A DNA stretch of 64,000 nt from Enterococcus mundtii. GTDB taxonomy: Bacteria > Bacillota > Bacilli > Lactobacillales > Enterococcaceae. The stretch's first letter is position 1. Every line of letters begins with the position of its first letter. Position numbers and translations under genes: made by a program. This document shows positions 40,491 to 41,442 of the stretch, one piece after another. The stretch covers positions 893,501 to 957,500 of the forward strand of contig NZ_CP025473.1 in the NCBI RefSeq assembly GCF_003957375.1, read 5' to 3'. Under the pieces are notes generated by a model that saw only the letters and a program-made list of their open reading frames with translations, made no database searches and was not told the DNA's origin.

Positions 40491-41064
40491 TACAGATTAT
40501 ACGGCCTATACTCGAGAAATCTTGATGCAAAAAGTCCAAATGAGAATGAGTGAACAGCGCTTCAAACATGTCTTAGGTGTAGAACAAACAGCTATTGCAC
40601 TTGCTGAAAGGTATGGTTGCTCGCCAGAAAAAGCGAGTATCGCCGCATTGACACATGATTATGCAAAAGAACGACCAGACGATGAGTTTATCTTATTCAT
40701 CGAACGTGAGCAACTTGATCCAGAGTTATTAGCTTATGGAAATGCGATTTGGCACGGATTAGTCGGTGCATCATTTGTTGAACGAGAATTAGACATCACT
40801 GATGAGGAGATCTTACAAGCAATCCGTCTCCATACGACAGGAGCTGCTGAGATGTCCTTACTCGATAAAATCATCTATGTGGCTGACTATATCGAACCAG
40901 GACGTTCCTTCCCAGATGTCAAAGAAGCCCGTGAGATTGCCATGATCGATTTAGATGAAGCAGTTGCATTCGAAACCAAACATACATTAGCACATTTAAT
41001 TGCGCAAGAAATCAAAATTTATCCAAAAACAATTGAAACATATAATCATTGGGTAGCAAAATAG
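40480..41064 (+). CDS. yqeK: HD-domain Ap4A hydrolase YqeK
   Basis: The 194-residue HD-domain phosphohydrolase belongs to the YqeK family, shown in other Gram-positives to split diadenosine tetraphosphate symmetrically into two ADP. Metal ligands are His in RFKHVLGVEQ, the HD pair in ALTHDYAKE, His in NAIWHGLVG and Asp in VADYIEPGR. It is the sixth-last gene of the block and shares its start with the nadD end. Confidence 0.93.
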   Translation: MNYSTDYTAYTREILMQKVQMRMSEQRFKHVLGVEQTAIALAERYGCSPEKASIAALTHDYAKERPDDEFILFIEREQLDPELLAYGNAIWHGLVGASFVERELDITDEEILQAIRLHTTGAAEMSLLDKIIYVADYIEPGRSFPDVKEAREIAMIDLDEAVAFETKHTLAHLIAQEIKIYPKTIETYNHWVAK

Positions 41065-41088
41065 CTGACCCATTAGGAGGAAATCATC

Positions 41089-41442
41089 ATCGATAGTAAA
41101 GAACAATTAAAAATCGCTGTCCAAGCAGCAGATTCAAAACGTGCAGAAGATATTTTAGCTTTAGACGTCCGTAAAGTGTCGCTATTAGCTGACTACTTTA
41201 TGATCTGTTCAGCAAACAGTGAACGTCAGATCAATGCCATCGTGGAAGAAATCATTGAAAAAGAAGAAGAAAGCAAATACGAAGTAAAACGCGTAGAAGG
41301 AAAAGAAGGCGGCAAATGGATCCTGATCGATCTAGGTGATTTGATCATCCATGTATTCCATGCCCCAGAACGTGGTTTTTATAATTTAGAGAAATTATGG
41401 TCAGATGCGCCACTTGTCGATTTGACTGAATGGTTGGATTAA
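41089..41442 (+). CDS. rsfS: Ribosomal silencing factor RsfS with probable ATC start
   Basis: RsfS (about 117 residues) binds L14 on the 50S subunit and blocks subunit joining when nutrients run short. The whole family fold reads in one frame from about 41092: DSKEQLKIAVQAADSKRAED, LDVRKVSLLADYF, then EGKEGGKWILIDLGDLIIHV and ERGFYNLEKLW. Upstream in frame is TAG at 41074-41076, and between it and GTG 41176 there is no ATG, GTG or TTG. Starting at 41176 would remove the first helix. The only start with a ribosome-binding site is one of three tandem ATC codons (41083, 41086, 41089) behind a perfect AGGAGG (41075-41080). I choose 41089 by spacing. Confidence 0.85.
   Translation: MDSKEQLKIAVQAADSKRAEDILALDVRKVSLLADYFMICSANSERQINAIVEEIIEKEEESKYEVKRVEGKEGGKWILIDLGDLIIHVFHAPERGFYNLEKLWSDAPLVDLTEWLD

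Follow-up and report, generated by a model that had tools for sequence, protein, structure and literature searches.

From which codon is a gene translated when its reading frame offers none of the usual starts? This question is raised by rsfS in the window, that is, the whole stretch of 64,000 nucleotides from Enterococcus mundtii that was analysed here. In E. coli and other organisms, RsfS attaches to uL14 and keeps the ribosomal subunits from joining in poor media and in stationary phase (PMC3400551). In the window, the rsfS frame matches TIGR00090 (profile search; E=3.5e-34, 116.9 bits, cut-off 56.9), and its match to PF02410 (E=8.5e-33) covers positions 2-98 of 98, which is the whole RsfS domain. 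The product belongs to the RsfS / iojap / YbeB family, and by homology it would also bind uL14 and block subunit joining. It is the single rsfS match in the window's genome. The neighbours of yqeK and rsfS in the gene order of Table 1 are presumably yqeH, yhbY, nadD, a methyltransferase gene and tmcAL. Positions 41070-41100, read directly, are ccatTAGGAGGaaATCATCATCgatagtaaa. The original prediction held that the complete RsfS fold lies in one frame lacking any ATG, GTG or TTG between the TAG at 41074 and the GTG at 41176, and that translation starts at ATC; the reading of the window sequence, together with the TIGR00090 and PF02410 matches, confirms the first point. The second would be unusual, as to our knowledge conserved AUU, AUC or AUA starts are known for merely a handful of bacterial genes. 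A reconstruction over 36 genome groups is reported to have found one switch to AUU among 61,358 ancestral AUG starts (PMC5622118).

Table 1. Features of the rsfS start region and its surroundings (window positions)
Feature	Position	Strand	Remarks
yqeH-yhbY-nadD-yqeK-rsfS-methyltransferase-tmcAL	window	all one direction	yqeK and rsfS named by NCBIfam
Predicted RNA hairpin before the rsfS Shine-Dalgarno sequence	41050..41072	+	yqeK Trp-Val-Ala codons and yqeK-rsfS spacer
yqeK end	41064	+	24 nt before 41089
In-frame stop TAG	41074-41076	+	part of TAGGAGG; closes the rsfS frame upstream
rsfS Shine-Dalgarno sequence AGGAGG	41075..41080	+	direct reading; overlaps the in-frame TAG 41074-41076
First two ATC codons (41083, 41086)	41083..41088	+	probably untranslated spacer between Shine-Dalgarno sequence and start
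Most likely rsfS start, AUC (AUA in most relatives)	41089..41091	+	8 nt after AGGAGG
rsfS coding sequence	41089..41442	+	117 aa if the start is 41089, plus stop TAA 41440-41442
GTG, first canonical in-frame codon	41176..41178	+	rejected as start

In the following, AUH stands for AUA, AUC or AUU, SD for the Shine-Dalgarno sequence, and columns 1, 2 and 3 for the alignment columns of the window's ATC codons at 41083, 41086 and 41089. The search of the window's family (f1) covered 105 genomes; rsfS was found in 104, and all 104 loci were read (L184 in part). Only in G019, which is 74% complete, was no rsfS found. The search of the order covered 198 genomes, 26 of them in f1. Outside f1, 70 loci were read, comprising all 25 genomes of f8, a Vagococcus-type sister group of the window's family, and 45 loci from f2, f3, f4, f6, f7 and f9, while 102 order genomes, including the one of f5, were left unread. 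The start columns were also aligned for 80 named loci, which partly overlap with these sets, and for 15 genomes of the same genus, the window's included.

Across the 104 family loci, column 3 holds ATA in 84, ATC in 11, ATT in 4, AAA in 3, AAG in 1, AGT in 1 and ATG in none; in f8 it holds ATT in 12, ATA in 9, ATC in 3 and TTA in 1. An ATG at this place in related strains would have pointed to a local error or mutation, and none of the 129 loci has one, though ten carry ATG one to three codons earlier. Starts were assigned by a rule in which a canonical codon beside the column wins and AUH is taken otherwise (L127, L152 and L180 were set by eye), which gave ATA in 92 of the 129 loci, ATC in 12, ATT in 10 and ATG in 10, with 5 ambiguous. 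An AUH start is assigned in 114 loci, which represent 21 of the 23 genera, all but g8 and g11. The ATG starts fall in g8 (L168, L172, L174), g11 (L164, L180, L184) and f8 (L216, L218, L224, L257), and in the ambiguous loci (L013, L014, L127, L176, L183) a canonical codon crowds or overlaps the SD. Among the 99 AUH loci of the family, 80 have no ATG, GTG or TTG from the upstream in-frame stop to the AUH codon, and of the remaining 19, 10 have their nearest canonical codon at least 10 codons off.

Outside f1 and f8, a canonical start precedes residue 10 in 44 of the 45 order loci. A canonical rsfS start is lacking in 16 of the 31 named loci that NCBI ranks as Enterococcaceae (Vagococcus included) and in 0 of the 47 named loci of Lactobacillaceae, Carnobacteriaceae, Bacillaceae and Listeriaceae. 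Two unplaced Lactobacillales MAGs both have a canonical start, yet carry ATA in column 3.

A quick protein tree was built from YqeK, RsfS from codon 5 onwards and the methyltransferase (149 rows, 20 of them outside both groups). The 129 family and f8 rows group together with an SH-aLRT of 93, many forks in the tree being weak, and the rows with ATG starts are nested among AUH rows. At least 5 changes are needed between AUG and AUH, and within the 114 AUH rows at least 8 from one AUH codon to another. As 10 of 129 loci have an ATG start by the rule, the weak start appears to be dispensable in some lineages. A-to-G is normally an easy change and yet column 3 never holds ATG, which on this rough tree suggests selection against AUG, though a count of changes on a tree does not separate such selection from slow change.

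Within its gene neighbourhood, the absence of a canonical start is all but confined to rsfS. For rsfS, 61 of 104 family loci are without a canonical start in the stretch from the upstream stop to residue 10, compared with 0/74 for yhbY, 1/98 for nadD, 0/104 for yqeK, 0/103 for the methyltransferase gene and 0/98 for tmcAL, together 1 of 477 tests, from which edge loci (25 for yhbY, 6 for nadD) were excluded and in which loci without a match were uncounted. The figure for rsfS is conservative, because the test accepts as a start any ATG, GTG or TTG that occurs by chance ahead of residue 10, even one far upstream. The sole neighbour case is nadD of L180 (G067), which has no ATG, GTG or TTG from the upstream stop to residue 10.

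Would the protein instead begin at GTG 41176, with everything upstream untranslated? This GTG is the first canonical codon in the frame. But the NG86 dN/dS ratio is 0.02-0.16 for codons 4-33 in eight genera and 0.03-0.12 for codons 34-118; only pairs with dS within 0.05-2 were used, and the values are rough as dS is near saturation. Codons 4-33 appear to be under purifying selection, hence GTG 41176 is not the start. Its column holds GTG in 15 of 129 loci, and a protein starting there would lose the first 25 of the 98 PF02410 positions, a quarter of the domain. A start at 41176, which the original prediction had named as one of two findings that would overturn it, is ruled out on these grounds as very unlikely. 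That a sequencing or assembly error has destroyed an ATG in the window is hardly credible and can likewise be ruled out, since relatives carry the same state: the three identical ATC codons recur in G007 and in E. mundtii CVM N55263, whose RsfS proteins are 100% and 99% identical to that of the window, and no family locus has ATG in the column. The comparison of 129 loci, the neighbour controls and the dN/dS values together strongly support an ATC start.

The next question is which of the three codons is used. All three are identical in the window, the second lies at a usable distance of 5 nt from the SD (the first at 2 nt), and column 2 is ATC in 57 of the 104 family loci. Initiation at the first or second codon (41083, 41086), or at more than one of them, is nevertheless quite unlikely, as many relatives have codons in columns 1 and 2 that do not resemble starts (ACC, ACT, CCT, AAG, AGG, AAA and others), and the excess of ATA is seen in column 3 only. 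Column 1 holds ATT in 43 family loci, ATC in 9 and ATA once (L175), and column 2, besides its ATC, holds ATT in 4 and ATA in none, the rest being other codons. Of the 99 AUH family loci, in contrast, 84 have ATA in column 3, whereas ATA makes up 201 of 3376 isoleucine codons (6%) in yqeK, in the methyltransferase gene and in the post-start part of rsfS across the f1 loci. Column 3 is therefore no ordinary isoleucine codon, and the enrichment of ATA is confined to it. The three tandem ATC codons behind AGGAGG that had been noted in the window do exist, but only the third is conserved.

Relatives with ordinary starts point to the same column. Column 3 is ATG in Bacillus and Neobacillus, TTG in Listeria and ATG or TTG in most lactobacilli, while some lactobacilli have ATG one codon earlier and Carnobacteriaceae start rsfS two codons before the column. 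In a sequence search of the PDB, query residue 4 aligns with residue 2 of 6sj5 and 6sj6, which we take to be S. aureus RsfS, and query residue 5 with residue 3 of BH1328 (2o5a), so that residue 1 of these chains falls at codon 3. The SD is placed accordingly: in 111 of the 114 loci with an AUH start, a run of at least 5 SD bases lies 7-10 nt before the AUH codon, and the spacing is 8 nt in 80 loci and 9 nt in 26. For comparison, 38 open frames of the window with a comparable SD before ATG, GTG or TTG have a median spacing of 7 (range 2-16), a loose control that took frames of at least 150 codons, chose their starts by the best SD and left their status as genes unchecked.

It was also considered that the codon at 41089 is an internal isoleucine codon and that the start lies further upstream. 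This candidate was rejected for most loci because the gap between stop and AUH codon is short and ATA is enriched in column 3 only. From the in-frame stop to the AUH codon there are 2 codons in 13 of the 99 AUH family loci, 4 in 43 and 5 in 8. In the 13 loci with two codons (g4, g14, g15, g17), which stand between an in-frame TGA and the AUH codon, neither is ATG, GTG or TTG in 11. In L152 the conserved region is preceded by two additional codons, yet the ATA lies at the proper distance from the SD. An in-frame ATG five codons downstream of the AUH codon, present in 24 of 99 AUH family loci, counts against the AUH start. In the f2 loci L261, L262 and L264, a TTG appears to be the start two codons upstream, codon 3 being ATA, GTA and ATT, respectively; in the Carnobacteriaceae-like L261 and L264, to which the internal-codon reading does apply, the TTG is the likely start. 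Judging from f2, the SD may have moved to act on a codon inside the gene, and the AUH start may have originated in this way.

The best-known gene of this kind is infC, which encodes IF3 and in E. coli starts with AUU. E. coli infC is autoregulated, with IF3 reading its own start codon (cited in PMC13009471), and infC of S. aureus is reported to start at AUA by Ribo-Ret (PMC13009471). The comparison with infC had been part of the original prediction, and it gains strong support from the family's own genes. Of the 103 family genomes that carry infC, 50 loci were read, all from the Enterococcus family. The start region is GGAGG TGA ATG ACC ATA in 49 of them, with ACG in place of ATG in L287, and the ATA, 9 nt after GGAGG, is invariant (50/50). 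The in-frame ATG, 3 nt after GGAGG, is seen in L285, the window's genome, among the 49, and a start at this ATG would add two residues relative to the ATA. The invariance of the ATA, taken with the S. aureus result, suggests that enterococcal infC starts at AUA, with the upstream ATG as a rival. Such a start suggests in turn that rsfS and infC share one layout, GGAGG, 8-9 nt and AUH. Unlike enterococcal infC, with its ATG two codons before the ATA, rsfS is mostly without such an ATG.

We consider it likely that rsfS is translated from a non-AUG start, the AUC at 41089, which is recruited by the SD but used inefficiently, and that IF3 should reject many of the complexes formed on it. In this mechanism, the strong SD 8 nt upstream would bring the 30S subunit to the AUC, and the weak codon would make initiation inefficient, several-fold lower than from AUG according to the literature. 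IF3 prevents premature association of the 50S subunit, and complexes on non-canonical codons are lost faster in its presence (PMC8266586). Judged by its codon class, rsfS is probably discriminated in this manner, and IF3 would reject many 30S complexes on its start, as for infC. RsfS would then be low in fast growth, and would rise when there is little IF3 per 30S subunit or when proofreading is relaxed. Such a feedback would let the levels of RsfS and IF3, both of which keep the subunits apart, move together. Both proteins are reported to be raised in E. coli cells that have no RimM (PMC13246957), which we count in favour of this explanation. We propose more tentatively that IF3 senses infC and rsfS as a pair in the Enterococcus and Vagococcus groups, a loss of start-codon proofreading raising both anti-association factors. 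Like infC, rsfS has a weak AUH start and a strong SD, and both products prevent premature joining of 30S and 50S. Unlike in the autoregulation of E. coli infC, control of rsfS by IF3 would act in trans, as we know of no inspection of start codons by RsfS.

The main rival remains a reading in which the start is the same and the weak codon is a fixed dimmer by which RsfS stays far less abundant than ribosomes, and conveys no signal from IF3; we regard this as a real possibility, at rather less than an even chance. AUA and AUU starts of S. aureus yield about 10% of the AUG output in poor medium, and while ccpN reaches up to 30% of AUG in rich medium, cvfC1 shows no medium effect (PMC13009471), as a fixed setting would have it. 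The better initiation on ccpN in rich medium does not favour a rise of RsfS in starvation. Weak rsfS starts also occur elsewhere, namely TTG in E. coli and Listeria and CTG in L281. A fixed setting, however, could equally use UUG, GUG or a poor SD, whereas rsfS pairs a strong SD with a codon drawn specifically from the AUH class, and infC seems to do likewise. The start of E. coli and Listeria rsfS is that of the same gene and weaker than AUG, but UUG is a member of the canonical trio and lies outside the class that IF3 rejects.

Another explanation is translational coupling, in which ribosomes terminating on yqeK slide or re-initiate at the weak codon, with a hairpin aiding or blocking them. 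The short distance from the yqeK end and the recurrence in g1 of a predicted hairpin around the yqeK stop speak for it, but the yqeK-rsfS spacer varies in length and content among relatives, and most genera lack the hairpin while having the AUH start, so we regard coupling as unlikely. The yqeK stop overlaps the loop of the predicted hairpin. In g1 its MFE is at most -5.5 in 14 of the 15 loci, with a mean z of -2.8; the mean z is below -3 in g7 and g12 (2 loci each) and above -2 in the other 14 genera. In predictions for L002-L014 the hairpin occurs at the same place, with a spacer arm that differs between species yet still pairs. That it hides the SD was rejected, since it precedes the SD rather than lying on it and is predicted in few genera only; it may be incidental.

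Although the original prediction was right to name infC, its statement that such starts are known mainly from there was too narrow. Published AUH-type starts include pcnB of E. coli, ccpN and cvfC1, as well as citZ in some laboratory strains of S. aureus (PMC13009471). The ccpN (AUA) and cvfC1 (AUU) genes of S. aureus resemble rsfS in having a conserved AUH codon and a strong SD, and their starts are conserved among staphylococci, that of ccpN also with B. subtilis (PMC13009471). They differ in function, ccpN encoding a repressor of gluconeogenesis and cvfC1 a small protein. Initiation at both of their start codons was seen by Ribo-Ret (PMC13009471). With pcnB, rsfS shares the AUH start, though gene and phylum are different. 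The inefficient AUU start of E. coli pcnB reportedly limits its expression, going by the title of a 2002 study by Binns and Masters. With no usable canonical start, a strong SD at normal spacing and conservation across species, rsfS probably joins infC, pcnB, ccpN and cvfC1 in the small set of genes with a conserved weak start.

A conserved AUH start is known as a kind, and among the open-access matches listed (titles and abstract openings) we found no report of one for rsfS or of conservation to this depth, though a preprint by Gvozdjak and Samanta may list rsfS. The name rsfS has 0 occurrences in the main text of the S. aureus paper on non-AUG starts (PMC13009471), and a term search of the main text of the Enterococcus Grad-seq paper gave no RsfS (PMC10117718). 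A rare start has been retained across 21 of the 23 genera sampled, and the gene concerned itself belongs to translation. Gene callers that expect ATG, GTG or TTG could miss or truncate rsfS, so enterococcal RsfS models may be wrong at the N terminus. The weak start could hold RsfS at a low level and couple its synthesis to the condition of the translation apparatus. If infC and rsfS are indeed a pair sensed by IF3, a ribosome-silencing protein would be controlled by the fidelity of initiation itself, which raises the question of whether IF3 proofreading regulates genes beyond its own. Two loci outside the window's family have CTG at the start of rsfS: L281 (g49), the one order locus outside f1 and f8 with no ATG, GTG or TTG before residue 10, and L092 (Lacticaseibacillus parakribbianus), which carries a GTG ahead of its SD in addition to the CTG in the start column.
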